Source: Deroplatys truncata
Lineage: Eukaryota; Arthropoda; Insecta; Mantodea; Mantidae
Length of the DNA stretch: 64,000 nucleotides
Assembly: GCA_030765065.1 (NCBI GenBank)
Contig: CM060979.1
Coordinates: 20,489,001-20,553,000 of the forward strand
Reading direction: 5' to 3'
Both the position numbers and the translations under genes were made by a program. Positions 12,580 through 31,225 of the stretch are shown here, in pieces. Under the pieces are notes generated by a model that was given only the letters and a program-made list of their open reading frames with translations, had not been told where the DNA came from and ran no database searches. Positions within the stretch are counted from its first letter, which is position 1. Each line of letters starts with the position of its first letter.

Positions 12580-13933
12580 CAGAGTGATTTATGAAGAACT
12601 GACACATTTATTTCTTTAATTGTTTCAAAACTAGTTATGCTAGTGACAACTTATTATACCTGAAATGCAGAGGAGTTTTGGGAGATTATTTACCTCTATA
12701 GCAAATGTTGAAAATATCCCCCATCCTGCATAAGGCACAACTCAACATGTTCCGTGTTACTGGCCACTCGTTGGAGGACTCTGTTGTCAATAGCTTGAAT
12801 CTCCTGTGTAATGTTGTGCTTCAGATCGTCTAATGTCTGGTGACACGTGGCATAAACCCTGTCTTTTAAGTAACCCCATAGAAAGATGTCCGGCGATGTC
12901 AAATCCGGAGATCTCGGTGGCCACAGGTTCTTGGAAATTATCCTGTCGTCAAAGAAACTTGCAATCAGTGCCATGGATGCATTTAATGTATGGCATGTAG
13001 CGCCGTCCTGCTGAAAATATCCTTGACTCAGCTCTGCATCGTCTAGCTGCTGAGCAAACTCCGTGAAAATCCGTTGGTACTCTGCAGTGCTCATATTGTT
13101 TTAAAAAAAATTGGTCCCACTATTCTCTGTGCGGATATTGCGCACCAAACTCCAATTTTAACCGGGTGCATAGGTGCTTCATGAATAACATGTGGATTTT
13201 CGCTGGCCCAATAGCGTGAGTTATTTGAGTTCACATAGCCAGATAAATGGAACCATGCTTCATCTGTGAACCATGTGATGGACAATATGACAGGATTTTG
13301 CACAATGAACGCCTGAAACCAACGACAATAATTCAGTCGTCTATCCTTATCTGGTCCCTGTAACTGATGGACAACCGTAATCCTTTATAGCTTTAGGCCT
13401 GCACTTTTCACAGCTCTCTGACACATTGAGTAGCTGTACCCTGCCTCCTGCGACAAACGTCTTAATGATTTTTTTTTGTGACTGATCCAGTCGTGCTCTT
13501 ACGTCAACAACCGTGGTAAGCCTAGATGAACGAGTTTTGCCTTTTTACTCACCAGAGATCCAGTTGTTTCCAGTTTGTTTACCAGTCCTAGTATTGTGTT
13601 TCTTTGGGGAGGATTCCGAACACTAAATTCTCTTTGGTATGTCCTTTGAGTAGCTGTAATTGAATTCGTAATCCAGTATTGCTTTAGAAGGAAGAGTCGT
13701 TTATTTAATGTGTACTTCATTTTCACGTTGACTAGAACAAAATCTCAAAAACAGTTGAAGACATTAAAACTAACAATTACGAATAAAACATGAATATGTG
13801 CGCATCTATTGACAAGCAATCGAAACTCCAGCTCCAAATTCTGCTTAATTTGGTGTTAAAATTGGGGCATTGGGTGAATTTCGAACAGAATAATTAAAGA
13901 AAGAAATGTAGCAGTTCTTCATAAATCACCCTG
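12580..13933 (-). mobile_element. Tc1/mariner-superfamily transposon with DUF4817-type transposase
   Basis: Inverted ends of about 50 bp (CAGAGTGATTTATGAAGAAC on the left; CAGGGTGATTTATGAAGAAC read from the right) are flanked by TA at 12578-12579 and 13934-13935. The length is 1,354 bp, and one transposase gene on the minus strand fills the element. Confidence 0.85.
12696..13726 (-). pseudogene. DUF4817 plus DDE transposase, frameshifted
   Basis: The ORF starts at about 13726 and encodes a DUF4817-type helix-turn-helix (YTLNKRLFLLKQYWITNS, then NPPQRNTILGLVNKLETTGS). The frame is then lost between about 13500 and 13303. The catalytic core follows: WFTDEAWFHLSGYVNS (Asp codon 13262-13264), SAQRIVGPIFF, the second block YFQQDGATCHT (Asp codon 13005-13007) and the third block PPRSPDLTSPDIFLWGY. 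The C-terminus ends MQDGGYFQHLL with its stop at 12696. All three acidic positions are still legible, but frameshifts at about 13500 and 13095 split the gene. The enzyme would have bound the 50-bp ends of the element. The relative at 59669-61929 has a similar protein but different ends. Confidence 0.85.
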
Positions 13934-14917: not shown

Positions 14918-14923
14918 CTTCTA
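14918..14923. repeat. target-site duplication, left
   Basis: CTTCTA, identical to 31220-31225. Confidence 0.9.
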
Positions 14924-14976
14924 AGTAGGGTATAAATGATGGTTCACGGCCAGTTAATTTATGCATGGCTATTCAT

Positions 14977-14984
14977 ATGCAAAT
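14977..14984 (+). promoter_or_regulatory. octamer motif near left terminus
   Basis: ATGCAAAT at nucleotides 54-61 from the tip, mirrored at 31159-31166. Some adenovirus origins place an Oct-1 site in the first 50 or so nucleotides. A similar role here is inference only. Confidence 0.35.
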
Positions 14985-14989
14985 GAGCT

Positions 14990-15034
14990 CCCCCACCTCC
15001 TCCCTCCCCCACCTCCTCCCTCCCCCTCCCCCCC
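14990..15034 (-). promoter_or_regulatory. G-rich tract near left tip
   Basis: A run of 45 bases, C-rich on the plus strand and therefore G-rich on the minus strand, with at least four G runs of three or more. This could form a G-quadruplex. It lies 67-111 nt from the terminus. Confidence 0.5.
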
Positions 15035-15586
15035 GCTGTGCCTTGGTAGTTTTAGCTGCACCTGCGGTCGTAAATCATGTTGAGTACAATGGAGGCTTGA
15101 CAGTTAGGTAATTAAGGTTGTCAATCAACTGTCAAAACGAACAAAGGGGTCCTAAATTTAAGGTTCTGTAACAAAGGCGAGATGTTTTTCCTACCCATTC
15201 CACATCCGGCCACTTCTGCACCTGGTCAGTTACCCGCCCCCCACTTCCATTGTGTGTGTCGAACACGTGGCATACTCGTTCCACTAGCTTTTAACAAAAG
15301 AACAATGCTTGCCCTTCAGCTGTCAAAATGAACAAAGCCCATGATGAATTAGGGTTGTAACAAAGCCTGACCCTTTCCATTGTGTAAGAGATTCTATTGT
15401 GTGTGCCTTTCTATTGTCCGATGCAAGCATTCTTTAGAAAGACCACCTGGAAACCCAATAACAAAGCCTGACCCTTTCCATTGTGTAAGAGATTCTATTG
15501 TCCTTGGCAAGGCTAGTTTAGAAAGACACCTGCAGCGTTCCCATTGTTTGGCCACCTGCTAGTTTAACAAAAGAATTCGAGGGCTG

Positions 15587-15656
15587 CTTTATACTCGTCC
15601 TCTCCTTGTTTGTGTGAAAGAGAGAGAAACTTGTTTACCAACTCTGCGTGACGTCA
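15587..15656 (-). promoter_or_regulatory. outward-facing CRE plus TATA promoter, left arm
   Basis: A perfect CRE palindrome TGACGTCA (15649-15656) lies about 56 bp upstream of a TATA box (minus-strand TATAAAG, 15587-15593). It points toward the left tip. No clear downstream ORF is seen; the first ATG opens only a few codons. Confidence 0.45.
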
Positions 15657-15827
15657 TAGTCGGCCATCATGATTTTGCCTGAGGGAGCTCTCTCCGATGT
15701 TTTACGACCTCCTACGAATATACCCGAGCATAGTTAACAAGCATTCTGTTTCAGCCAACGACTCCGAAAAAGCGTCTAATATACATTTCATTACGTGCAT
15801 TAAACCTCTGAGTGATATCCATAGATC

Positions 15828-17215
15828 GGTGTTCGATTCTTACTGTAATCAAAAGTTTATTGCTAATGAGAAATTAATGATTGATATTATTATAATATTA
15901 CCCTAATTAATAAAAAGGCGTTCAGAGAATTCTAGCTCGGGTCTTACCAAGTGAAACTCTAACGCGTAATAACTATTAAACTATGCAAGGTCAGATTAAA
16001 AAAATGTATTTATCAATTATAATTTAATTTTTTAAATATCATTACCCTAATTAATGAAAGGGTGTTCAGAGGGTTCTAGTTCGAATCTTACCCAACGAAA
16101 CTCTAATGCTTAATAAATATTAAACTATGCAAGGTCAGATTTAAAAATGTATTTATCAAATATAATTTTTTTATACATCATTACCCTGATTAATGAAAGA
16201 CCGTTCAGAGGACCCTAGTTCGAATCTTACGCAGCGAAACTCTAATGCTTAATAAATATTAAACTATGTAAGGTCACCTCATGCGTATACATACATACAC
16301 CAGTGCTCTTACACTCACACATTCACGCACCTCATGCGTACACATACATACACCAGTGCTCTTACACTCACGCATACATATACATGGACACACACACACG
16401 TGCAAACACATATGCCTGTTCACTTACACCCAACAGCAGCAACCCACACTCGCACACACCAACTCACGCGCATGTCCTGAATGAAAAGAGACAAAATGAT
16501 GCAATAAAAACTAATTATAGCTCGGGATGCAAGGCTCCATTTACGATTGCTCGAAACCGGTCTTCTAATAACTCCAAAACTAATTAAAATAAACTTTATT
16601 ACTTTTATGCCATTAGCTCGTTTCTTGTGCATGTATATTAGAGTCCGGGTGTCATGGGTTCGATCCTTAACTTTAAAATCTCAATTATCTCAGAAACTAG
16701 CAGGGATTAAGGTGCGGACCAAAGCACGATTTTTAGTTCCTACGATGAACAATTAATGCTTTATATAATTTCCAATCAGTGTCCCTAGCTCGAATCCCGA
16801 TCTTTCAGTGACTTCCTTAATTTTCCACTGTGTTCTAGAATATATCACTTAGATCAATGTTGCAACTGTATACAGGTCTTTTAAACACATCAAACTAATA
16901 TTATAAATAATTTTGTTTCTGGCGTTCTGAGTTCGAATACCGATTCAATGAAGTTTACTTATAAATTTAATAACAGTAAATAATTAAGACAAAGGTACCA
17001 AATAAACCTATTACGTTTATGTCATCAGATAATATCTTGCGGGTGTATATTAGGGTACCTGACGTCCAGGGTTCGATCCTTAAGTTTAAATCTCAATTAT
17101 CGCAGAAACTAGCAGAGATAGAGTTGTAGATGAAAGCATGTTTGATAGCTCATACAATGAACAATTAATGCTGTATATAAGTTTCAATCAGTTGCCCCTA
17201 GTTCGAACCCCGATC
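15828..17215 (+). repeat. ~140-bp satellite with B-box-like motif, left arm
   Basis: Degenerate units each contain a tRNA T-loop/B-box-like core: 15831, 15934 (degraded), 16078, 16217, 16657, 16787, 16930, 17070 and 17200. The steps between neighbouring cores are mostly 130-143 bp. Examples are GGTTCGATCC and AGTTCGAACCCC. A CA-rich microsatellite (about 16275-16460) interrupts the array. Confidence 0.65.
16275..16460 (+). repeat. CA-rich microsatellite, left arm
   Basis: CACA-type variant repeats with two near-identical 60-bp blocks containing ACATACACCAGTGCTC. The open frames across it are simple-repeat artefacts. Confidence 0.7.
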
Positions 17216-17355
17216 TTTCAATGACTTCACTGATTTTCCTCTGTACTCTAGAATACATCACTTAGATTGATGCTTTAACTGCATGCAGCTGTGTGAGAGA
17301 GAGCGAGAGAGGGAGAGGAAGTGAAACAAGCAGGGATAGAAGTGCTGAGGGCCTC

Positions 17356-17470
17356 TGCGCATGCGTAGCAAGAGATGATGCCATTGGCTGCAATAATCAC
17401 GTGACGTGTAAGCATCACAGCCATGATGACGTGCAGGCATCGCCTGGAGGGGGTTTAGATCCCTATATAA
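17356..17470 (+). promoter_or_regulatory. promoter of left-arm two-exon gene
   Basis: In order: NRF1-like TGCGCATGCGT (17356-17366), inverted CCAAT (ATTGG, 17383-17387), E-box CACGTG (17398-17403) overlapping CRE-like TGACGT (17402-17407), a second TGACGT (17427-17432) and TATATAA (17464-17470). No ATG occurs between the expected transcription start (about 17495) and the first codon at 17596. Confidence 0.6.
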
Positions 17471-17595
17471 ACAGACATCTGTCCCATGTTAGAACTGTTG
17501 TGTACTTATTAACTTTACATTCAAGTTTTAAAGAGCTTTAAAAGCAACGTGAGCTACAGGCCGTCTACACATTCAGCACATATCAAAACGGGGCA

Positions 17596-18702
17596 ATGCA
17601 AGGTGAGTTTTAAATAACTATACAAAATCACTGTTGGCTTTTACAATACATTTAATTTTATTTAAACGTTACAGTAAATGAAAGACGATTCGTTACAAAG
17701 AGCATCATATTTTCTAATCTGTGCTTTACATTAACATGGATTTCACTGCATACTCTTCTTCAGTTCACATGATTTTCGCCACACATTCTTCTTACATAAA
17801 CATTCATACGACTTTCCCCTCATTCTTTGTTTCACTATACACTCACATGATTTCCTCTACTCATTCTTTGTTCCACCTACAGGTTCATGCTCTGTTAACA
17901 TTCACAATCCTTGCTTCCATTAACATTCACATGATTTTCGCCACACCTTCTTCTTACATAAACATTCATACGACTTTACCCTCATTCTTTGTTTCACTAT
18001 ACACTCACATGATTTCCTCTACTCATTCTTTGTCCCCCTGCAGGTTCATGCTTTGTTAACATTCACACGACGTTCTCAGCTCATTTCTCTATTGACATTC
18101 ACATGATCTTCTCAACACATTCTTCTTACTTAAACATTCATACGATTTTCCCCCTCATTCTTTGTTTCACTATACATTCGCACACGATTTCCTCTACTCA
18201 TTCTTTGGTTCTCTGCTGGCTCATCTTCAATGAACATTCACATGATTTCTGTACTTATTCTTTATTTCTCTACACCCTCATAGGCTTACTTACAAAACAT
18301 ACACACCCTAGTTCTTCAACTTGAATAATGTAGTGAAAATAATAATTCATGACAATGACTGTTACAGATTGTTTAGCTGATAGACTTAACAAGATGGTGG
18401 AAGAGCGTAGTTTCCTACCGACTCGCCGAGTTCAAGATCTCGAAATAGGTCTTAACTATGAGATAAAGTCCTTAAAGAGAGTTCAAACAAGATATGGTAC
18501 CAGGATCGTATCTTCGCTGGAGGATTGTCAAGTGTTCTTGCCAGAGCGCTATAATTCGTTAACCGATCAAGAGATTGCAGAAATACCTGGGAGCGTATAC
18601 CTACAGTATAATGGCATGGCAGAGAAGGGGAAATTTAAGACATGTAAATTGTCTTTTTTACATGCAAAGAAGGTGCGTAGAAGTGTCAAACTTAAGTATT
18701 GA
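17596..18702 (+). CDS. putative two-exon small protein, possible OB-fold (left arm)
   Basis: Exon 1 would be the seven bases from ATG 17596-17598 to 17602. A consensus donor CAAG/GTGAGT starts the intron at 17603, and an acceptor TTACAG ends it at 18367. Joining keeps the frame (phase 1) and gives about 113 residues. Without splicing, ATG 18349 gives 117. The protein is basic. Its core is YEIKSLKRVQTRYG followed by a strand-like IVSSLEDCQVFLPERY, and the C-terminus is lysine-rich. The pattern of a hydrophobic strand, the RYG turn and VFLP resembles small ssDNA-binding-type OB-fold proteins I associate with arthropod mobile elements; this is from memory and not a domain hit. AATAAA follows 33 bp after the stop (18735-18740). 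The intact frame in both arms suggests either selection or recent arm copying. Confidence 0.6.
17720..18300 (+). repeat. intron tandem repeats, left arm
   Basis: About 163-bp units built of roughly 40-bp submonomers beginning ACATTCACATGATTTTC. Monomers at 17841 and 18001 read ACACTCACATGATTTCCTCT, very close to the start of the R1 family. The units contain CTACAG/CTGCAG acceptor-like sites. Confidence 0.7.
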
Positions 18703-18740
18703 ATGTTCTCCCATTTCACAATGAAAAATTCATAAATAAA

Positions 18741-20079
18741 ACAACTGACTCATTGATATTACATATAAAGATACAAAAGATGCATATTATAGAATTTTAT
18801 AAAAAATTAACGAAATTACAATATCACATGCTTGAGTTTAATTATATCTAGCGCATTGAAATAACTCTAAATATCCGAATGTTTATACAAATCTTTGTGC
18901 TTCTTTTTACATGTGCCATATGCTTCATTTTACATTTATCATAACAAAAAATGTAATTCTTTCCAGGTTGCCTTTACTTGACCAAGATAGTTTTCTAAGA
19001 CTTTCATTGTGCAATGTTTCAGGGTGTGCAATAAGAGGAAGAAGAAGAAGAGGAATAGCCTGCTGGCATGCAAAGGATGCTGACGCTATGGGAGGGTAGA
19101 ATACCTACAAGAAACATTTCGGCAAGAAACGGGTGCTGAGACATCTACATCACCGAAACACATTAAGACAGGATCCTTATATAACATTACAGGGTATACA
19201 ATGAAAAACTACGGTCAATTTTGTATACAATTCAATGCATGGCTGAGAGTTAGCTCGAACTAGTCTCCCTATATTCACTGAAATTAAGCATTGTGAGCAA
19301 TAATTTAAGTGACTGTGAAAATACTTTAAGTAATGGTGAAATTTGTATCCTAAAAGACTTGAGCCCTGTATACATTAACAGCATTAAGGCTGTTTGCCAC
19401 GCTGGAATACAAATTATGAAAATAAAAAGACTTTCATTTAAATAATAAGGAAATTTGCATAACCTGCTGTTACAAGTGTAATGACATATACAGAAACAAT
19501 GAGTCGGACGAGAAAGTGATGGAAATGTAAGATAAATAATAACAATAAAAGAATTAAGGTATGCTTTTACATAGTGTTTTTATTCATTAAAAATCCTTGT
19601 ATTCCTAATGAAAAATAAATCATTACAATGATTAGTTTAAGTTATATCACAATGATCAAAAAGAGAACCGTCTTTAGATGCATTACTCGATCTTAAGTCA
19701 GAGCACCAAAAAATGACAAATCACGGCTTCTCCATTTTAGATGTGGTGTCACTATTCAGGTAAATTCATGTAACACAACAGGTTGAGTATGCAGATCTGT
19801 GGTCCTAAATGGGTGAAACAGAGTCTTGTCCAGCTTAACAGTCTTGAGATCTCACCATCAGGAAGTCGAATCACAAGCCTTCTCCACTCGCTGAGCACAG
19901 GTTTAACAACAGCATTCTCTTCACCCTGAGACGATGTAAAGTATATAAATGTTCAACTTGACAAGGGATTCTAAACTGGTTGTTAGAGTCCAGAACTGAT
20001 GTATTATATGGTAAAAACACATGTTCCTCTTCTTAGCGATCTTGTCGTCGAATCTCGGTGTCATTGAAGATGCCCATGA
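18741..20079. other. left arm, no clear gene; decayed coding segment near 19750-20075
   Basis: Mostly AT-rich. The minus strand of 19750-20075 has two partly open frames (mirror of 24905-25230) that look like fragments of one former gene. Confidence 0.35.
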
Positions 20080-20550
20080 TTATAGGATTCTGAAGCCCAA
20101 AAACTGTAGGAACTGCTGATTGCGTGATGTTAACCTGATGGGCGTCAAGGGCAGAGCATGATGTGTGCGTCGAATCATTCCATTATTATATCCTCGACGT
20201 CGTTGACTTCTTCTAAAAACTATAGGCATTATGCTTATATCCTTGTTTCTAAAGGCAATGATATTGCTGTTAGGCTCCCCTGTTTGCTCTATGAAGCGGG
20301 TGTTTATGAACAACAGGTAAAATTTGATTTGATGGTTCCTGTGAAATACGTTATCCAGCCGTAACAGATGGGAAAACTGGTAGATGGAGTGTCCACTTTT
20401 ACTATAGAGGAAGGAGACTGATGCAATACTGCGCTAAATTCGTATGATGCTCAACTTAAATATATTCACTAGGAAATCAGATTCAGATAGCTGATTAGAT
20501 GGAATAACTTTGTCACTGAAGGGTCGCAGAACGTTCCTATAGAACAATCA
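20080..20550 (-). pseudogene. decayed element gene, left arm
   Basis: Mirror of 24430-24900, with the same single in-frame TAG and no ATG at the start of either open part. A splice acceptor-like polypyrimidine tract plus CAG precedes it on the minus strand, so it may have been a downstream exon. The C-terminal half is basic (RRSQRRRGYNN) and ends LTSRNQQFLQFLGFRIL. I do not recognise the family; its position after the X/protease locus would suit a structural or packaging gene of a Polinton, which is inference. Confidence 0.4.
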
Positions 20551-20678
20551 CTGGAAAAAATCAAGAGTGAAAGGACATTTTAATTATTATTATTATTATT
20601 CACTGATCTAATAAAGAAGACATTCGCATCCTAATATGACGAATCTTTCTAACTCTTTCATGGTTTTGCAAATGCTAA

Positions 20679-21251
20679 TCACGCTATAAAACCACCCAGC
20701 TTTAAATCCTGAATAATGTCGTTAATCGCATCGGAAAAGTCATTTTTATCTGGTGTATGAAGCATCATGAGTACCCTTAGCATGTTTACCAAATCATTAG
20801 GATCGGTGTAGCGGTATAGCATCTCCTCTGTATTCGCTTTGGATATATCTTCTAATCTAGGTGATTTGACACTAGTATGCTTGCTTTCATTGGTGTGCTT
20901 ATTCAGAGCTTGCTCATTCAAAGAAACTGCTGTCATTGCTTCATCAGTGGTAGCTCTTGACGTTATTACAGGGTCGCTTGAACTGGTTCCAAGTACGGTA
21001 CATCTTGAATCCCGCTCTTCGGGACTTGAGAAGATTTCAGGATCTCGTTTGGGTGTTGTAGTCAATGCACAGCTGGTCATTGCTTTACAGCATCTTCTCC
21101 TATGTTGTTTAAGCCTTGAAATTGTCCTGTTCTTTAAAGTTCTATTACATATGCAGCACTTAACAAAGCGATTACTCCCCCCTTGGGAAACATACGAAAA
21201 ATCAAGATTCTCGTAAATTGACTGTAATTGACCGTCTTTGTGAGTGTTCAT
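20679..21251 (-). CDS. BED-like zinc-finger ORF, element centre
   Basis: The first true ATG is at 21249-21251, giving 190 residues to the stop at 20679. An N-terminal zinc-finger pattern Cys32-x2-Cys35-x14-His50-x3-Cys54 lies in KCCICNRTLKNRT...LKQHRRRC, typical of BED-type or C2HC fingers of transposon and chromatin proteins. A serine/threonine-rich, probably disordered middle follows. An acidic and hydrophobic C-terminus (NDLVNMLRVLMMLHTPDKND, then FSDAINDIIQDLKLGG) resembles a helical protein-interaction tail. A TATA-like box (minus-strand TTTATATATACTG) lies only about 10-22 bp upstream of the ATG, so the leader would be very short or transcription starts elsewhere. The ORF is intact, single copy and transcribed away from the minisatellite. 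DNA binding is inferred from the finger; the target is unknown. Confidence 0.55.
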   Translation of the reverse strand: MNTHKDGQLQSIYENLDFSYVSQGGSNRFVKCCICNRTLKNRTISRLKQHRRRCCKAMTSCALTTTPKRDPEIFSSPEERDSRCTVLGTSSSDPVITSRATTDEAMTAVSLNEQALNKHTNESKHTSVKSPRLEDISKANTEEMLYRYTDPNDLVNMLRVLMMLHTPDKNDFSDAINDIIQDLKLGGFIA

Positions 21252-21566
21252 GCTCAAGCAGTATATATAAACTAGTCAATGTATACTGTAGATGTTGAAT
21301 TCGTATACGATAACACGAGACTGAGCTATTTTTTAACATTTATGTATTTATATATGTACTCAGGTTTTGATGCATATAAACAGCCATGCCGAATTAGACT
21401 AAGCAAAATATTGTAGCATTCGCACATAATAGTTGTAATTTCGTTAATTATAACTATCTCATTAAGCACAAGCAGATTCAAGTAGCTAGAAATGGATTCA
21501 TAGAGGTAAGAGTACAAGTTTTCTTGATAGTTAGCACAGAGAATGCGAGAGTTGAGGGAGATACTG

Positions 21567-23245
21567 GTCATTTTCCATTTGCAGGTCACCTTTTTTCCCT
21601 TTGCTGGCCACCTTTTTCCCTTTGCTGGTCACATTTTCCCCTTTGCTGGTCACCTTTTTCCCTTTGCTGGTCACATTTTCCCCTTTGCTGGTCACCTTTT
21701 TCCCTTTGCAGGTCACGTTTTTCCCTCTTCTGGTCCCATTTTTCCCTTTACTGATCACCTTTTTCCCTTTGCTGGTCACATTTTTCCCTTTGCTAGTCAC
21801 AATTTTTCCCTTTGCTGGTAACATTTTTTCCCTTTGCTGGTCACTTTTTCCCTTTGCAGGTGGCATTTCTCCCTTTGCTGGTCACGTTTTTCCCTTTGCT
21901 GGTCACGTTTTTTCCATTGTTGGTCACCTTTTTTCCTTTGCTGATCACATTTTTCCCTTTCCTGGTCACCTTTTTCCCTTTGCTGGTCACCTTTTTCCCT
22001 TTTGCTGGTCACGTTTTTTCCCTTTGCTGGTCACCTTTTTCCCTTTGCTGATCACATTTTTCCCTTTCCTGGTCACCTTTTTCCCTTTGCTGGTCACCTT
22101 TTTCCCTTTTGCTGGTCACCTTTTTCCCTTTGCTGGTCACCTTTTTCCCTTTGCTGGTCACGTTTTTCCCTTTGCTGGTCACCTTTTTCCCTTTGCTGGT
22201 CACCTTTTTCCCTTTGCTGGTCACCTTTTTCCCTTTGCTGGTCACCTTTTTCCCTTTGCTGGTCACCTTTTTCCCTTTGCTGGTCACCTTTTTCCCTTTC
22301 CAGGTCACCTTTTTCCCTTTCCTGGTCACCTTTTTCCCTTTGCTGGTCACCTTTTTCCCTTTGCTGGTCACCTTTTTCCCTTTTCTGGTCACCTTTTTCC
22401 CTTTGCTGGTCACCTTTTTCCCTTTGCTGGTCACCTTTTTCCCTTTCCTGGTCACTTTTTTCCCTTTGCTGATCACATTTTTCCCTTTGCTGGTCACCTT
22501 TTTCTCTTTGCTGGTCACCTTTTTCCCTTTCCTGGTCACCTTTTTCCCTTTGCTGGTCACCTTTTTCCCTTTCCTGGTCACCTTTTTCCCTTTCCTGGTC
22601 ACCTTTTTCCCTTTGCTGGTCACCTTTTTCCCTTTGCTGGTCACCTTTTTCCCTTTGCTGGTCACCTTTTTCCCTTTCCTGGTCACCTTTTTCCCTTTGC
22701 TGGTCACCTTTTTCCCTTTTGCTGGTCACCTTTTTCCCTTTGCTGGTCACCTTTTTCCCTTTCCTGGTCACCTTTTTCCCTTTGCTGGTCACATTTCTCC
22801 TTTTCCTGGTCACCTTTTTCCCTTTGCTGGTCACCTTTTTCCCTCTGCTGGTCACCTTTTTCCCTTTGCTGGACACCTTTTTCCCTTTCCTGGTCACCTT
22901 TTTCCCTTTCCTGGTCACCTTTTTCCCTTTCCTGGTCACCTTTTTCCCTTTCCTGGTCACCTTTTTCCCTTTGCTGGTCACCTTTTTCCCTTTGCTGGTC
23001 ACCTTTTTCCCTTTGCTGGTCACCTTTTTCCCTTTCCTGGTCACCTTTTTCCCCTTGCTGGTCACCTTTTTCCCTTTCCTGGTCACCTTTTTCCCTTTGC
23101 TGGTCACCTTTTTCCCTTTGCTGGTCACCTTTTTCCCTTTCCTGGTCACCTTTTTCCCTTTGCTGGTCACGTTTTCCCTTTGCTGGTCACGTTTTTCCCT
23201 TTGCTGGTCACCTTTTTCCCTTTGCTGGTCACCTTTTCCCTGAAT
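21567..23245. repeat. 21-bp minisatellite, about 80 units
   Basis: The unit is CTGGTCACCTTTTTCCCTTTG with GCTGG/CCTGG and CACCT/CACAT/CACGT variants. Being 21 bp and free of stops, it leaves long frames open on both strands: up to 551 codons on the plus strand (FPLLVTF repeats) and 358 on the minus strand (VTSKGKK repeats). Occasional one-base indels switch the frame along the array. The plus strand is almost pure pyrimidine between GGTCA blocks. Confidence 0.9.
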
Positions 23246-23785
23246 GGGTTACATGATGGGAAAGTATATAACGTTGACATGAAACAGTTTTCCACTAAGT
23301 TCACATCTAAAGTCGCTTTCAAAGTCTAACATATGAATAGGCTGTGAGCATTCTTGTTTCATCCTCTCTAGCTTGACAGCTAAAGTAAAATAAATCGCTC
23401 TTAATGTATATACGCTAATGAGAAAGTATAAAAGAACTATCCTGAATAAAAATCGATTAGTATAACGTGACAGCTAAGGTGGTTAAGCCCGCAAGAGGTT
23501 TCGGTTTAATTAACTCTCTCACTAGCCTGCAATCAGTGAAGTACATTTACCTGGTTACATAGGCTGAGGAACTGTGGTAAAGCTAGAGAAAAATTAAAGA
23601 GAGGAGACCCTGGAATCATTCCGTTAGACGATTCGTGTAATCTTAGCGGCATTGCCAACGCTCAGCATAAGGTCTCTGCTTCGAGAAACATTGCCGCCAA
23701 GATCTGACTGAAACGACTTGGAAAAGCGTGCAATCTGATGTTACATTAGGTGAAAAAGTTGGCAGCGTGACTAGTAACATCAATT
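23246..23785 (+). promoter_or_regulatory. X gene upstream region with TATA box
   Basis: TATAAAAG at 23427-23434 would start transcription near 23460, about 330 bp before the X start codon. A short upstream ATG near 23739 opens only three codons. No other gene is seen. Confidence 0.4.
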
Positions 23786-24295
23786 ATGAAGGGAAAGGTA
23801 GCTCCAGGTGCAGTAACCATGAAGAAGAAACGAGGAGGATTTCTACCTCTCATACCAATTATTGCAGCTCTAGGCGCTGCTGCTGGAGGTGCAGCCCAAA
23901 TTGCCTCAGCAGTAAATAAGAAAAAGGCAGCAGATAAACAACTTGCCGAAATGATGAGGCATAAGAGAGAAATTGAGAGAAAGGTATCTGTTGGCGGAGG
24001 GTCCAAAAAGAAGAAACGAGGAGGATTTCTACCACTCATACCAATTATTGCAGCACTAAGAGCCGCCGCTGGAGGTGCATCACAAATTGCTACAGCTGTA
24101 AATACGAAAAAAGCTGCAGATAAACAACTTGCTGAAATGATGAGACGTAACAGAGAAATTGAAGCAAGAGGGAGAGGTTTTCGAGTGAAGAAGAATAAGG
24201 GAAGAAACACAGAAACGAAGAGGAGACAGAGCCTGAAAGGGAATTCAAAAAACTCCGGCAGAGGACTATACTTGTCCCGGAAAAACATTGAGTAA
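23786..24295 (+). CDS. X protein, adenovirus pX-like, tandemly duplicated
   Basis: Starts at ATG 23786-23788; 169 residues. Residues 13-64 and 75-126 are near-identical 62-residue-spaced units, each a basic KKKRGGFLPLIPIIAAL start, a Gly/Ala-rich hydrophobic stretch (about 19-43 and 81-105) and a lysine/arginine-rich helix (DKQLAEMMR). The DNA repeat period is 186 bp. The C-terminus is basic and ends SGRGLYLSRKN. Basic plus GG-rich hydrophobic proteins of this kind are the X proteins of Polintons and adintoviruses, related to the adenovirus core peptide pX (mu) that condenses DNA in the particle. Most copies I know have a single unit, so the duplication is unusual. The frame is intact up to TAA 24293-24295 and overlaps a protease-like segment in the +1 frame. 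Confidence 0.7.
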   Translation: MKGKVAPGAVTMKKKRGGFLPLIPIIAALGAAAGGAAQIASAVNKKKAADKQLAEMMRHKREIERKVSVGGGSKKKKRGGFLPLIPIIAALRAAAGGASQIATAVNTKKAADKQLAEMMRRNREIEARGRGFRVKKNKGRNTETKRRQSLKGNSKNSGRGLYLSRKNIE

Positions 24296-24374
24296 CATAG
24301 ACCTTGACTTGTATGCCCGACGTTTAAAGATTCCTCATATTAGGATGCGAATGTCTTCTTTATTAGATCAGTGA
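24288..24374 (+). pseudogene. remnant of Maverick cysteine-protease N-terminus
   Basis: In the +1 frame relative to X, LSNIDLDLYARRLKIPHIR is followed by a few codons and a stop at 24372-24374. In many arthropod Maverick proteins a similar L-x-x-x-DL-x-x-Y...LKIP-x-FRG block precedes the adenain-like (Ulp1-type) maturation protease. Here no catalytic His or Cys region follows, so only the extreme N-terminus survives. The inner edge of the right inverted repeat (24326) falls inside this block, and the left arm carries its mirror up to 20648. The breakpoint that created the palindrome therefore lies in this gene. The family link is from memory of the motif. Confidence 0.5.
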
Positions 24375-24429
24375 ATAATAATAATAATAATAATAATTAA
24401 AATGTCCTTTCACTCTTGATTTTTTCCAG

Positions 24430-24900
24430 TGATTGTTCTATAGGAACGTTCTGCGACCCTTCAGTGACAAAGTTATTCCATCTAATCAGCTGTCTGAATC
24501 TGATTTCCTAGTGAATATATTTAAGTTGAGCATCATACGAATTTAGCGCAGTATTGCATCAGTCTCCTTCCTCTATAGTAAAAGTGGACACTCCATCTAC
24601 CAGTTTTCCCATCTGTTACGGCTGGATAACGTATTTCACAGGAACCATCAAATCAAATTTTACCTGTTGTTCATAAACACCCGCTTCATAGAGCAAACAG
24701 GGGAGCCTAACAGCAATATCATTGCCTTTAGAAACAAGGATATAAGCATAATGCCTATAGTTTTTAGAAGAAGTCAACGACGTCGAGGATATAATAATGG
24801 AATGATTCGACGCACACATCATGCTCTGCCCTTGACGCCCATCAGGTTAACATCACGCAATCAGCAGTTCCTACAGTTTTTGGGCTTCAGAATCCTATAA
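24430..24900 (+). pseudogene. decayed element gene, right arm
   Basis: An open stretch of about 156 codons starts after the acceptor-like TTTTTTCCAG (ends 24429) and is interrupted only by TAG at 24544-24546. The first part is FYRNVLRPFSDKVIPSNQ-like and acidic to neutral. The second part contains GHSIYQFSHLLRLDNVF, then a very basic RRSQRRRGYNN segment and a C-terminus LTSRNQQFLQFLGFRIL. No ATG begins either part. The locus lies 55 bp downstream of the protease-like remnant and is transcribed in the same direction. An unrecognised Polinton ORF is the best description. Readthrough or simple decay of the single stop cannot be separated by inspection. Confidence 0.45.
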
Positions 24901-24904
24901 TCAT

Positions 24905-25230
24905 GGGCATCTTCAATGACACCGAGATTCGACGACAAGATCGCTAAGAAGAGGAACATGTGTTTTTACCATATAATACATCAGTTCTGGACTCTAACAA
25001 CCAGTTTAGAATCCCTTGTCAAGTTGAACATTTATATACTTTACATCGTCTCAGGGTGAAGAGAATGCTGTTGTTAAACCTGTGCTCAGCGAGTGGAGAA
25101 GGCTTGTGATTCGACTTCCTGATGGTGAGATCTCAAGACTGTTAAGCTGGACAAGACTCTGTTTCACCCATTTAGGACCACAGATCTGCATACTCAACCT
25201 GTTGTGTTACATGAATTTACCTGAATAGTG
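24905..25230 (+). pseudogene. further decayed coding segment, right arm
   Basis: One frame reads IMGIFNDTEIRRQDR, then a stop, then a long open stretch including VFLPYNTSVLDSNNQFRIP. Another frame later has VVKPVLSEWRRLVIRLPDG. The switch of sensible-looking sequence between frames suggests a frameshifted gene. The family is unknown, and the mirror lies at 19750-20075. Confidence 0.3.
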
Positions 25231-26239
25231 ACACCACATCTAAAATGGAGAAGCCGTGATTTGTCATTTTTTGGTGCTCTGACTTAAGATCGAGTAATGC
25301 ATCTAAAGACGGTTCTCGTTTTGATCATTGTGATATAACTTAAACTAATCATTGTAATGATTTATTTTTCATTAGGAATACAAGGATTTTTAATGAATAA
25401 AAACACTATGTAAAAGCATACCTTAATTCTTTTATTGTTATTATTTATCTTACATTTCCATCACTTTCTCGTCCGACTCATTGTTTCTGTATATGTCATT
25501 ACACTTGTAACAGCAGGTTATGCAAATTTCCTTATTATTTAAATGAAAGTCTTTTTATTTTCATAATTTGTATTCCAGCGTGGCAAACAGCCTTAATGCT
25601 GTTAATGTATACAGGGCTCAAGTCTTTTAGGATACAAATTTCACCATTACTTAAAGTATTTTCACAGTCACTTAAATTATTGCTCACAATGCTTAATTTC
25701 AGTGAATATAGGGAGACTAGTTCGAGCTAACTCTCAGCCATGCATTGAATTGTATACAAAATTGACCGTAGTTTTTCATTGTATACCCTGTAATGTTATA
25801 TAAGGATCCTGTCTTAATGTGTTTCGGTGATGTAGATGTCTCAGCACCCGTTTCTTGCCGAAATGTTTCTTGTAGGTATTCTACCCTCCCATAGCGTCAG
25901 CATCCTTTGCATGCCAGCAGGCTATTCCTCTTCTTCTTCTTCCTCTTATTGCACACCCTGAAACATTGCACAATGAAAGTCTTAGAAAACTATCTTGGTC
26001 AAGTAAAGGCAACCTGGAAAGAATTACATTTTTTGTTATGATAAATGTAAAATGAAGCATATGGCACATGTAAAAAGAAGCACAAAGATTTGTATAAACA
26101 TTCGGATATTTAGAGTTATTTCAATGCGCTAGATATAATTAAACTCAAGCATGTGATATTGTAATTTCGTTAATTTTTTATAAAATTCTATAATATGCAT
26201 CTTTTGTATCTTTATATGTAATATCAATGAGTCAGTTGT
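25231..26239. other. right arm, no clear gene
   Basis: Mirror of 18741-19749. A 62-codon frame at 25881-26069 (minus; mirror 18911-19099) has no recognisable features. Confidence 0.4.
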
Positions 26240-26277
26240 TTTATTTATGAATTTTTCATTGTGAAATGGGAGAACAT

Positions 26278-27384
26278 TCAATACTTAAGTTTGACACTTC
26301 TACGCACCTTCTTTGCATGTAAAAAAGACAATTTACATGTCTTAAATTTCCCCTTCTCTGCCATGCCATTATACTGTAGGTATACGCTCCCAGGTATTTC
26401 TGCAATCTCTTGATCGGTTAACGAATTATAGCGCTCTGGCAAGAACACTTGACAATCCTCCAGCGAAGATACGATCCTGGTACCATATCTTGTTTGAACT
26501 CTCTTTAAGGACTTTATCTCATAGTTAAGACCTATTTCGAGATCTTGAACTCGGCGAGTCGGTAGGAAACTACGCTCTTCCACCATCTTGTTAAGTCTAT
26601 CAGCTAAACAATCTGTAACAGTCATTGTCATGAATTATTATTTTCACTACATTATTCAAGTTGAAGAACTAGGGTGTGTATGTTTTGTAAGTAAGCCTAT
26701 GAGGGTGTAGAGAAATAAAGAATAAGTACAGAAATCATGTGAATGTTCATTGAAGATGAGCCAGCAGAGAACCAAAGAATGAGTAGAGGAAATCGTGTGC
26801 GAATGTATAGTGAAACAAAGAATGAGGGGGAAAATCGTATGAATGTTTAAGTAAGAAGAATGTGTTGAGAAGATCATGTGAATGTCAATAGAGAAATGAG
26901 CTGAGAACGTCGTGTGAATGTTAACAAAGCATGAACCTGCAGGGGGACAAAGAATGAGTAGAGGAAATCATGTGAGTGTATAGTGAAACAAAGAATGAGG
27001 GTAAAGTCGTATGAATGTTTATGTAAGAAGAAGGTGTGGCGAAAATCATGTGAATGTTAATGGAAGCAAGGAATGTGAATGTTAACAGAGCATGAACCTG
27101 TAGGTGGAACAAAGAATGAGTAGAGGAAATCATGTGAGTGTATAGTGAAACAAAGAATGAGGGGAAAGTCGTATGAATGTTTATGTAAGAAGAATGTGTG
27201 GCGAAAATCATGTGAACTGAAGAAGAGTATGCAGTGAAATCCATGTTAATGTAAAGCACAGATTAGAAAATATGATGCTCTTTGTAACGAATCGTCTTTC
27301 ATTTACTGTAACGTTTAAATAAAATTAAATGTATTGTAAAAGCCAACAGTGATTTTGTATAGTTATTTAAAACTCACCTTGCAT
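26278..27384 (-). CDS. putative two-exon small protein, possible OB-fold (right arm)
   Basis: Mirror copy of the gene at 17596-18702. ATG is at 27382-27384, the donor follows exon 1 at 27377, the acceptor ends at 26613, the stop is at 26278 and the polyadenylation signal is at 26240-26245. The encoded protein is identical in sequence to the left copy, so the element carries two convergent copies pointing toward its centre. A replication-associated ssDNA-binding role is plausible only if the OB-fold reading is right. I see no frameshift, stop or missing splice base in either copy. Confidence 0.6.
26680..27260 (-). repeat. intron tandem repeats, right arm
   Basis: Mirror of 17720-18300. Confidence 0.7.
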
Positions 27385-27509
27385 TGCCCCGTTTTGATAT
27401 GTGCTGAATGTGTAGACGGCCTGTAGCTCACGTTGCTTTTAAAGCTCTTTAAAACTTGAATGTAAAGTTAATAAGTACACAACAGTTCTAACATGGGACA
27501 GATGTCTGT

Positions 27510-27624
27510 TTATATAGGGATCTAAACCCCCTCCAGGCGATGCCTGCACGTCATCATGGCTGTGATGCTTACACGTCACGTGATTATTGCAGCCAATGGC
27601 ATCATCTCTTGCTACGCATGCGCA
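27510..27624 (-). promoter_or_regulatory. promoter of right-arm two-exon gene
   Basis: Exact mirror of 17356-17470: TATA at 27510-27516, the CRE/E-box at 27573-27582 and the NRF1-like site at 27614-27624. Confidence 0.6.
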
Positions 27625-27764
27625 GAGGCCCTCAGCACTTCTATCCCTGCTTGTTTCACTTCCTCTCCCTCTCTCGCTCTCTCTCACACAGCTGCATGCA
27701 GTTAAAGCATCAATCTAAGTGATGTATTCTAGAGTACAGAGGAAAATCAGTGAAGTCATTGAAA

Positions 27765-30080
27765 GATCGGGGTTCGAACTAGGGGCAACTGATTGAAACT
27801 TATATACAGCATTAATTGTTCATTGTATGAGCTATCAAACATGCTTTCATCTACAACTCTATCTCTGCTAGTTTCTGCGATAATTGAGATTTAAACTTAA
27901 GGATCGAACCCTGGACGTCAGGTACCCTAATATACACCCGCAAGATATTATCTGATGACATAAACGTAATAGGTTTATTTGGTACCTTTGTCTTAATTAT
28001 TTACTGTTATTAAATTTATAAGTAAACTTCATTGAATCGGTATTCGAACTCAGAACGCCAGAAACAAAATTATTTATAATATTAGTTTGATGTGTTTAAA
28101 AGACCTGTATACAGTTGCAACATTGATCTAAGTGATATATTCTAGAACACAGTGGAAAATTAAGGAAGTCACTGAAAGATCGGGATTCGAGCTAGGGACA
28201 CTGATTGGAAATTATATAAAGCATTAATTGTTCATCGTAGGAACTAAAAATCGTGCTTTGGTCCGCACCTTAATCCCTGCTAGTTTCTGAGATAATTGAG
28301 ATTTTAAAGTTAAGGATCGAACCCATGACACCCGGACTCTAATATACATGCACAAGAAACGAGCTAATGGCATAAAAGTAATAAAGTTTATTTTAATTAG
28401 TTTTGGAGTTATTAGAAGACCGGTTTCGAGCAATCGTAAATGGAGCCTTGCATCCCGAGCTATAATTAGTTTTTATTGCATCATTTTGTCTCTTTTCATT
28501 CAGGACATGCGCGTGAGTTGGTGTGTGCGTGTGTGGGTTGCTGCTGTTGGGTGTAAGTGAACAGGCATATGTGTTTGCACGTGTGTGTGTCCATGTATAT
28601 GTATGCGTGAGTGTAAGAGCACTGGTGTATGTATGTGTACGCATGAGGTGCGTGAATGTGTGAGTGTAAGAGCACTGGTGTATGTATGTATACGCATGAG
28701 GTCGTGAATGCGTGTGTGTACTGGTGTATGTGTGTGTGTGTACTGTTGTATGTATGTGCATGTGTGTGTATGTGCTGGTGTATGTGCTTGCGTGGGTGCG
28801 TGTGTGCGTGTGTGTACTTACATGTATGTGTATGCGTGTGTGTACTGGTGCATGTGTGTGCATGTGTGTGTGTGTGTGTTCATGTATATGTATGTGTGTA
28901 AGAGCACTTGTGTATGTATGTATACGCATGAGTTGTGTGAATGCGTGTATGTGCGTGTGTGTGTGTGTACTATTGTATGTATGTGAGTGTGTGTGTGTGC
29001 GTGTGTGTGCATGCGTGCACCAGTGTATGTTTGCTGATGTGTGTACAAGCGCTCGTGTATATGCGAACGCCTAAATGTGTACAAGTCGTGGAGAAAGAAA
29101 GAGATAGATAGAAAGAAAAAGAGAGGAGATGAAGAAAGAATGTTGGCTAGGCATCGAGATATCTAAGTATGCATCAGGGTTTAATATAAATAATTATATT
29201 TGCTAATTGCAATTTTAATCCGACCGCCCGCTGCTTCAATAAGTTAATAGTTATTATAGCGTTTCACAGGGTTGGATTCGAACTAGGGGGGCCTCTGGTT
29301 CCTAACAATACAGCTCGTTAAACATTGTAATGTTGTATAAATTAAATTATATTTGTTAAACACGTTTTAATCTGACCACCCAATACTCACATAGTTTAAT
29401 ATTTATTAAGCATTAGAGTTTCGCAGATTCGATCTAGAACCCTCTGAACATCGTTTCATTAATTAAATTATATTTGTTAAATACATTTTAATCTAGCCGT
29501 GCATAGTTTAATAGTTATTGGGCATTGGAGTTTCGCAGATTCGATCTAGGACCCTCTGAACACCCTTTTTATTAATTATTGTAATGATATATAAAAATTA
29601 AATTATATTTGTTAAATACATTTTATTCTGACCTTACATAGTTTAATATTTATTAAGCATTAGAGTTTCGCTGCGTAAGATTCGAACTAGGGTCCTCTGA
29701 ACGGTCTTTCATTAATCAGGGTAATGATGTATAAAAAAATTATATTTGATAAATACATTTTTAAATCTGACCTTGCATAGTTTAATATTTATTAAGCATT
29801 AGAGTTTCGTTGGGTAAGACTCGAACTAGAACCCTCTGAACACCCTTTCATTAATTAGGGTAATGATATATAAAAAATTAAATTATAATTGATAAATACA
29901 TTTTTTTAATCTGACCTTGCATAGTTTAATAGTTATTACGCGTTAGAGTTTCACTTGGTAAGACTCGAGCTAGAATTCTCTGAACGCCTTTTTATTAATT
30001 AGGGTAATATTATAATAATATCAATCATTAATTTCTCATTAGCAATAAACTTTTGATTACAGTAAGAATCGAACACCGAT
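27765..30080 (-). repeat. ~140-bp satellite with B-box-like motif, right arm
   Basis: Mirror of the left array with more units. Additional motifs occur near 29270, 29425, 29535, 29675, 29815 and 29960. The TG-rich block 28560-29060 lies inside it. Confidence 0.65.
28540..29060 (+). repeat. expanded TG-rich microsatellite, right arm
   Basis: About 520 bp of TGTG/TATG/GCGTG variants, the mirror of the much shorter tract at 16275-16460. Both strands are open for 80-180 codons only because of the repeat. Confidence 0.75.
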
Positions 30081-30248
30081 CTATGGATATCACTCAGAGG
30101 TTTAATGCACGTAATGAAATGTATATTAGACGCTTTTTCGGAGTCGTTGGCTGAAACAGAATGCTTGTTAACTATGCTCGGGTATATTCGTAGGAGGTCG
30201 TAAAACATCGGAGAGAGCTCCCTCAGGCAAAATCATGATGGCCGACTA

Positions 30249-30318
30249 TGACGTCACGCAGAGTTGGTAAACAAGTTTCTCTCTCTTTCACACAAACAAG
30301 GAGAGGACGAGTATAAAG
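30249..30318 (+). promoter_or_regulatory. outward-facing CRE plus TATA promoter, right arm copy 1
   Basis: TGACGTCA at 30249-30256 and TATAAAG at 30312-30318, the mirror of 15587-15656. Confidence 0.45.
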
Positions 30319-30487
30319 CAGCCCTCGAATTCATTTGTTAAACTAGCAGGTGGCCAAACAATGGGAACGCTGCAGGTGTCTTTCTAAACTAGCCTTGCCA
30401 AGAACAATAGAAAGGCACACACAATAGAATCTCTTACACAATGGAAAGGGTCAGGCTTTGTTATGGAGCAGGTGTCTTTCTAAAGTA

Positions 30488-30557
30488 TGACGTCACGCAG
30501 AGTTGGTAAACAAGTTTCTCTCTCTTTCACACAAACAAGGACAGGACGAGTATAAAG
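30488..30557 (+). promoter_or_regulatory. outward-facing CRE plus TATA promoter, right arm copy 2
   Basis: TGACGTCA at 30488-30495 and TATAAAG at 30551-30557. It is a 239-bp tandem duplicate of copy 1 that the left arm lacks. Confidence 0.45.
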
Positions 30558-31108
30558 CAACCCTCGAATTCTTTTGTTAAACTAGCAGGTGGCCAAACAA
30601 TGGGAACGCTGCAGGTGTCTTTCTAAACTAGCCTTGCCAAGGACAATAGAATCTCTTACACAATGGAAAGGGTCAGGCTTTGTTATTGGGTTGCCAGGTG
30701 GTCTTTCTAAAGAATGCTTGCATCGGACAATAGAAAGGCACACACAATAGAATCTCTTACACAATGGAAAGGGTCAGGCTTTGTTACAACCCTAATTCAT
30801 CATGGGCTTTGTTCATTTTGACAGCTGAAGGGCAAGCATTGTTCTTTTGTTAAAAGCTAGTGGAACGAGTATGCCACGTGTTCGACACACACAATGGAAG
30901 TGGGGGCGGGTAACTGACCAGGTGCAGAAGTGGCCGGATGTGGAATGGGTAGGAAAAACATCTCGCCTTTGTTACAGAACCTTAAATTTATGACCCCTTT
31001 GTTCGTTTTGACAGTTGATTGACAACCTTAATTACCTAACTGTCAAGCCTCCATTGTACTCAACATGATTTACGACCGCAGGTGCAGCTAAAACTACCAA
31101 GGCACAGC

Positions 31109-31154
31109 GGGGGGGAGGGGGAGGGAGGAGGTAGGGGAGGGAGGAGGTGGGGGA
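31109..31154 (+). promoter_or_regulatory. G-rich tract near right tip
   Basis: Mirror of 14990-15034 with runs of 9, 5, 3, 4 and 5 G. It is a potential G-quadruplex on the plus strand. Confidence 0.5.
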
Positions 31155-31219
31155 GCTCATTTGCATATGAATAGCCATGCATAAATTAACTGGCCGTGAA
31201 CCATCATTTATACCCTACT

Positions 31220-31225
31220 CTTCTA
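31220..31225. repeat. target-site duplication, right
   Basis: CTTCTA, identical to 14918-14923. Confidence 0.9.

Follow-up and report, generated by a model that had tools for sequence, protein, structure and literature searches.

Polintons are thought to be transposon-viruses, and to our knowledge direct signs of virus-like Polinton replication are few. They encode a protein-primed polymerase and a retroviral-like integrase (PMC6431247, available excerpt). Here we describe an element of this lineage in a 64,000-nt stretch of Deroplatys truncata DNA (the window, on the 211-Mb contig C5 of a 4.29-Gb assembly; coordinates are positions in the window) that is palindromic, with inverted arms of 5,725 and 6,894 bp. 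The terminal inverted repeats (TIRs) of intact vertebrate Mavericks measure 46-1,447 bp, with a mean of 402, in the available excerpt of PMC8097293, and an initial annotation of the window was right to say that these arms exceed the usual Polinton repeats. On the evidence presented here, the palindromic element is a Polinton only in the sense of a non-autonomous derivative, and would work like a snap-back satellite of complete siblings in the same genome.

The element resembles adintovirus-type Polinton/Maverick elements in its AG...CT ends, its 6-bp target-site duplication (TSD), its pX gene and the remains of ATPase, phospholipase A2 (PLA2), protease, penton and capsid genes, which lie in the order seen in the siblings; it differs from them in having no polymerase or integrase match and in its arms of 5.7-6.9 kb, against 1.8-2.0 kb in four siblings. 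Symmetric recombinants of adenovirus 12 are another mirrored viral genome, and Foldback enzymes are unrelated to those of Polintons. "Snapback" genomes have been reported for adeno-associated virus (AAV; PMC8235507, available excerpt), and there as here one half of the genome is mirrored around a loop. Helper dependence is reported for AAV and is what we infer for the present element, which, unlike AAV snap-back genomes, is known as integrated copies at many loci. As in Galileo, the inverted arms are long and hold internal repeats, are longest in non-autonomous copies and show exchange between copies, but the arms here are several times longer and the enzymes are unrelated (PMC3573991, available excerpt). 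Teratorn also carries long inverted repeats, but at 41-182 kb, with a herpesvirus, a piggyBac-like transposase and 18-bp TIRs (PMC6431247, in the same excerpt). Among the titles and abstract openings listed in a literature search, together with the excerpts cited here, none described a non-autonomous Polinton family with comparably long arms, although one may still exist in print; the available parts of PMC4028283 and PMC7805219 hold nothing on Polinton arm length, a search for adenovirus symmetric recombinants gave nothing useful, and one for defective adintoviruses gave no on-topic title among the matches listed.

A palindrome repeated across the genome

The element spans 14924-31219, and its two arms account for 77% of that length. 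Its main landmarks are as follows.

14918-14923, left TSD, CTTCTA, an exact repeat of 31220-31225
14924-14950, plus strand, left 27-bp variable tip (AGTAG...), with the same sequence as the right tip and as a tip found in a complete-type copy
14924-20648, plus strand, left arm, 5,725 bp, matching the right arm in inverted orientation
21571-23241, minisatellite with a 21-bp unit in 79 copies (tandem repeat analysis)
24326-31219, minus strand, right arm, 6,894 bp, with gene pieces that follow the order of the right part of the complete relative
31193-31219, minus strand, right 27-bp variable tip
31220-31225, right TSD, CTTCTA, an exact repeat of 14918-14923

The inner parts of the arms (16276-20648 against 28702-24326) match at 99.7% identity over 4,379 columns and the outer parts (14924-15658 against 31219-30486, about 0.73 kb) at 99.2%, with a repeat-rich match at mid-arm (15428-16276 against 30489-29629) at 96.5%. 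The right arm is the longer mainly because of a repeat-rich stretch at 28.7-29.6 kb. Between the arms lies a core (20649-24325) with a 192-aa open reading frame (ORF) on the minus strand, the 21-bp minisatellite and a 169-aa pX-like ORF. When the element was compared with the window by blastn (E 1e-20), none of the 40 longest matches fell outside the element. As the initial annotation had described it, arms of 5.7-6.9 kb thus fill more than three quarters of the element, which is flanked by a perfect 6-bp duplication, CTTCTA, and has AG...CT ends; that it would be hairpin-capable, also proposed there, follows from the sequence.

Long palindromes are a known assembly trap, and a false inversion or collapsed haplotypes might have produced the mirror image. 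This is hardly credible for the present element. Each arm encodes one copy of a 117-aa ORF, and in a genome search with this ORF the best 150 scored matches were taken from 7,420 first-look candidates, so that the copy count is a lower bound. Altogether 106 of these matches form 53 adjacent pairs (less than 12 kb apart, median spacing 7.7 kb), leaving 44 unpaired within the best 150, and all 53 pairs are in mirror orientation, where 0.06 pairs would be expected at random. A listed pX copy lies between the two arm ORFs in 23 of the 53 pairs (149 of 150 listed pX places used). The first 177 bp of the element gave 43 scored matches, many of them as facing pairs 10-19 kb apart. A check of the genome for other copies sharing the tip, as the initial annotation had proposed, found 686 exact matches to a 30-base subterminal motif (347 and 339 by strand), against none for the reversed control. 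Six further palindromic copies that we compared each have their own flanks, perfect 6-bp TSDs surround nine of the ten copies of both types for which both ends were read (window included; the right tip of an eleventh copy lies outside the sequence taken), and the two window arms differ from each other by substitutions, indels and repeats. As mirror pairs recur at many loci, the palindrome is not an assembly artefact; it is real and family-wide.

Complete siblings and the probable derivation of the palindromic type

Ten further copies were retrieved from the genome, each in two halves. Six have the palindromic layout of the window copy, with one of them shortened to 10 kb, and four are of a complete type, about 19 kb long, with arms of 1.8-2.0 kb that are 99.5-100% alike. 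Gene annotation of the complete type, made on one copy of the four, yielded a 1,217-aa polymerase frame, an integrase (PF00665, E 4.9e-10), an ATPase (Pox_A32, E 2.2e-6), a PLA2 domain (PF08398, E 2.2e-15) followed by pX in a frame that is interrupted in this copy, a protease with a weak Peptidase_C5 match (E 0.04, below cut-off), a penton-like frame of 255 aa with no Pfam match and a capsid protein (PF21738, E 3.8e-110), besides smaller frames. The proteins called penton and protease are what we take them to be from position and recognition. The polymerase had no polymerase match in scans of Pfam, PDB and PHROGs, and its identity is settled by homologues instead of profile scans: it is 45% identical, over 99% of the searched part, to a PolB named "Ladona dragonfly adintovirus", and among 120 listed relatives several carry PF03175, the named relatives being mostly insect, which would by itself suggest an arthropod host. 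The annotated copy thus combines an adintovirus-type polymerase, the capsid protein and PLA2-pX, the features of an adintovirus.

The scored copies of the two types lie apart in the genome. The sibling integrase was found in 125 scored copies (96-100% identity, 105 without a stop), not one of which has a neighbour among the 150 arm-ORF matches at a distance of 20 kb or less, so that the two element types are distinct. A census of contig C1, in which the first 100 motif places gave 31 paired elements, placed a listed integrase in six (18.4-19.5 kb), a listed arm ORF or pX in 11 (6.6-18.2 kb), both in none and neither listed marker in 14.

Comparison of the complete sibling's proteins with the palindromic copies by tblastn (E 1e-3) revealed what remains of a Polinton gene set in the window element. 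The initial annotation had found polymerase, integrase, ATPase and capsid not visible. For polymerase and integrase this stands, as neither had a match at this threshold in any of the seven palindromic copies, window included; for ATPase and capsid it does not, as decayed pieces of both, and also of the protease, can be detected, by comparison with the complete relative only. The pX-like gene that it had named is supported by a domain match. The ORFs and gene pieces are as follows.

18349-18702, plus strand, 117-aa arm ORF, left copy
20679-21257, minus strand, 192-aa ORF with a weak BED-like zinc finger (E 0.011, below the Pfam cut-off)
23270-23452, minus strand, N-terminal piece of the packaging ATPase, 57% identical to residues 1-60 of the relative
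23564-23851, plus strand, PLA2 remains upstream of pX, 57% identical
23786-24295, plus strand, 169-aa pX-like core protein, internally duplicated with a 186-bp unit (Adeno_PX, PF05829, E 1.2e-9)
24201-24344, plus strand, N-terminal piece of the protease; the adjoining 0.5 kb or so of the complete type is missing
24397-24750, plus strand, penton-like piece, residues 124-244, 51% identical; mirror at 20583-20230
24897-25340, plus strand, pieces of the major capsid protein; mirror at 20083-19640
25616-25775, minus strand, weak pieces (E 2.9e-4) of a 156-aa ORF located after the capsid gene; mirror at 19205-19364
26278-26631, minus strand, 117-aa arm ORF, right copy, the same protein

Eight gene pieces, one of them weak, are ordered and oriented as in the complete element. 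Read from the left through the window core and right arm, these are a C-terminal stretch of the protein beside the integrase (minus strand; 21 of 53 residues in the 192-aa ORF identical to the complete relative), the ATPase (minus strand), PLA2 and pX (plus strand), the protease, penton and capsid, and the weak minus-strand ORF pieces. Starting just ahead of the penton piece and continuing outward, the right arm is mirrored by the left arm. Given this collinearity and the mirrored left arm, the half that would have carried polymerase and integrase can be read as having given way to the right end, copied in inverted orientation, and an inverted duplication of one end in place of the other is the arrangement of a snap-back genome. 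Of 26 copies examined besides the window, 23 have a contiguous left junction (four of six copies taken as halves and 19 of 20 short stretches), and the exceptions are two copies with deletions at the junction and one with deeper arms; because the 20 short stretches come from copies chosen for having both an arm-ORF pair and a listed pX, they sample rearranged copies unevenly. The simplest reading would be one founding event followed by amplification, with arm extension having occurred again at least once.

In the copy with deeper arms (L051/L035/L069, C16:454.99 Mb) these run about 0.4 kb further, into pX, and 937 bp are mirrored with no mismatches and four gaps.

Shared ends, proposed origin and competing explanations

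Ten ends were aligned, six of the palindromic and four of the complete type, the shortened copy being excluded. Their first 27 bp vary strongly (mean identity 57-68%), and positions 27-1227 are 97.6-100% identical within and between types, counting aligned letters only, with an aligned share of 0.50-1.00 over 627-1227 bp because of indels; beyond about 1.4 kb the alignment becomes unreliable in tandem repeats. All tips begin with AGTAG. There are seven tip variants in 11 copies, taking a pair that differs at the last base as one, and three of the seven are common to complete and palindromic copies, two of these letter for letter. In none of the ten copies for which both tips were read is there more than one difference in 27 bases between them. 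The number of tandem tip units, counted by exact motif matches at the first 100 of the 686 places, is equal at both ends in 29 of 33 paired elements, and none of 20,000 shuffles reached this. Two trees of outer slices, which have little resolution, do not separate the types. The Polinton lineage named by the initial annotation is therefore where the TSD, the tips, the Adeno_PX match and a complete sibling with near-identical ends all place the element.

Ends with two or three tandem tip units were also seen (L008, L011 and L012, for example), each unit being about 90-120 bp and mostly near 106 bp.

These observations are best explained if the element is a non-autonomous, satellite-like derivative of an adintovirus-type Polinton that was born by fold-back, is mobilised in trans and has its ends homogenised, which we consider very probable. 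Its 6-bp TSD and AG...CT ends, the ends it has in common with a complete Polinton of the genome, and a body from Polinton genes together with a 117-aa ORF without known source are those of a non-autonomous Polinton derivative, and of the equipment of an autonomous Polinton/Maverick neither a polymerase nor an rve-type integrase was found, with only pieces of ATPase, protease and capsid genes in the window element. In adenovirus-type protein-primed copying, synthesis from an inverted-repeat end displaces a strand whose ends are able to pair. In one ancestor, the left half with polymerase, integrase and left end would have been replaced by the inverted right end, most likely through fold-back of the replicating strand or a change of template in the course of protein-primed, strand-displacement synthesis. 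If a displaced strand folds back and serves as its own template, the result would be a mirror molecule with the same end twice, and such a molecule would need only an end-recognising polymerase and an integrase in trans. The derivative would have retained both ends, the pX-like protein, the BED-like protein with its sibling-shared tail and one 117-aa ORF per arm, and would have been amplified to well over a hundred copies through the polymerase and integrase of complete siblings. Mobilisation by these enzymes is well supported by the shared ends and the TSD length, and it is from these that we infer it. During rounds of copying, complementary ends would pair and become alike again, which could account for the matching tips and arms, and ends would also be swapped with those of siblings. 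A mirror-image family beside complete elements, similar in appearance to the snap-back defective genomes of other DNA viruses, is the expected leftover of protein-primed, virus-like replication. With so many integrated copies, end exchange, arm homogenisation and helper-satellite dynamics can be measured within a single genome.

Several observations weigh against this explanation. One complete-type copy (L025/L026, C6:28.2 Mb) is flanked by unlike hexamers, AATATA and GCTATA. A tree built from 1.7 kb of arm joins the arms of the same copy as sisters for only four of six copies, one of them weakly, and in a tree of a 420-bp end slice with few differing sites the two ends of the window element do not group; arms that are not sisters mean that homogenisation is incomplete or that arms were exchanged between copies, and chromosomal gene conversion could also give end exchange. 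The palindromic element is known here from integrated genomic copies alone, and selection on its retained ORFs appears weak or undecided. Finally, none of the four complete copies has a match to the 117-aa ORF; they are therefore not the direct ancestor, and a related Polinton was probably the source of the founder. In the interior, longer matches between the types are mostly 72-85% identical (about 67% in one repeat stretch), and a 117-bp piece beside pX is 93% identical. A derivation of the palindromic copies as simple deletions of the sequenced complete copies was rejected on the 72-85% interior identity and the absence of the 117-aa ORF from the latter.

The arms might instead have grown within the chromosome, through gene conversion, unequal crossing-over or gap repair involving different copies, rather than on a free, protein-primed replicating molecule. 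We regard this as unlikely, and nevertheless as a serious rival for the arm length and for the copies with unlike arms: Galileo TIRs recruit internal sequence and are longest in non-autonomous copies (PMC3573991, available excerpt), and the non-sister arms in two of six copies fit an exchange between loci. Against it, Galileo TIRs reach about 1.26 kb in the same source, compared with 5.7-6.9 kb here, and the copying of one end from the other fits both the equal tip-unit number in 29 of 33 elements and the near-identical tips in all ten copies. A role of the element's own is improbable, in which the arms would give a long hairpin RNA that silences the complete sibling and act as a natural repressor. 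The mirrored arms do adjoin ends near-identical to those of the sibling, and regulation of the parent virus by snap-back genomes is reported for AAV (PMC8235507, available excerpt), but behind the shared ends the longer matches between arm and sibling are mostly 67-85%, which makes for a poor silencing fit. It is more improbable still that an independent mobile element borrowed the Polinton pX and ends; the 117-aa ORF and the BED-like N-terminus, unmatched in the complete copies, would suit such an origin, but the eight collinear gene pieces, including the weak one, argue against it. A more elaborate form of the preferred fold-back origin, offered tentatively and short of probable, is a long-lived satellite lineage of an endogenous adintovirus with a self-complementary two-armed genome, whose arms may be re-extended by fold-back, which may evolve in concert with its helper through swaps of the 27-bp tip and the adjoining 1.2 kb, and which is possibly packaged in helper capsids.

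Retained reading frames and minor features

The 117-aa ORF is 98-100% identical in the 150 best-scored copies, and the pX-like ORF 95-100% in 150 scored genome copies. No relatives of the 117-aa ORF were found in the protein database, viral contigs, Pfam, PHROGs, NCBIfam or PDB; similar short proteins may occur in insect Polintons. Its structure as predicted from the single sequence had a mean predicted local distance difference test score (pLDDT) of 50.5, for which reason no fold search was made. Likewise, no relatives of the BED-like ORF were found in the protein database, nor of pX in the viral contigs.

The ratio of nonsynonymous to synonymous changes per site was 0.31 for the 117-aa ORF (13 rows, including both window arms, which are identical to each other here), 0.39 for pX (23 rows, seven partial ones dropped, biased because most were picked by protein similarity) and 0.23 for the BED-like ORF (five rows, one partial one dropped). 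As a signal of selection, this last small-sample ratio was not upheld with 24 rows (one of 25 had no match), in which 61 of 87 distinct changes were nonsynonymous, compared with 76% expected (P 0.12), as were 15 of 24 changes recurring in at least two rows (P 0.097). The full 192-aa frame is kept in 15 of the 24 copies.

The pX repeat unit is tandemly duplicated at 23822-24162, and a blastn match over just one unit is seen in the complete type and in some of the palindromic copies. Arrays matching the 21-bp minisatellite of the core are visible in other palindromic copies. The remaining frames of at least 80 aa in the element lie in repeats, run antisense to the ORFs named above or are short (82 and 87 aa, for example). 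Outside the element, a 132-aa transposase-like piece occupies 12696-13094 on the minus strand, with a weak DDE_3 match (E 0.023, below cut-off).

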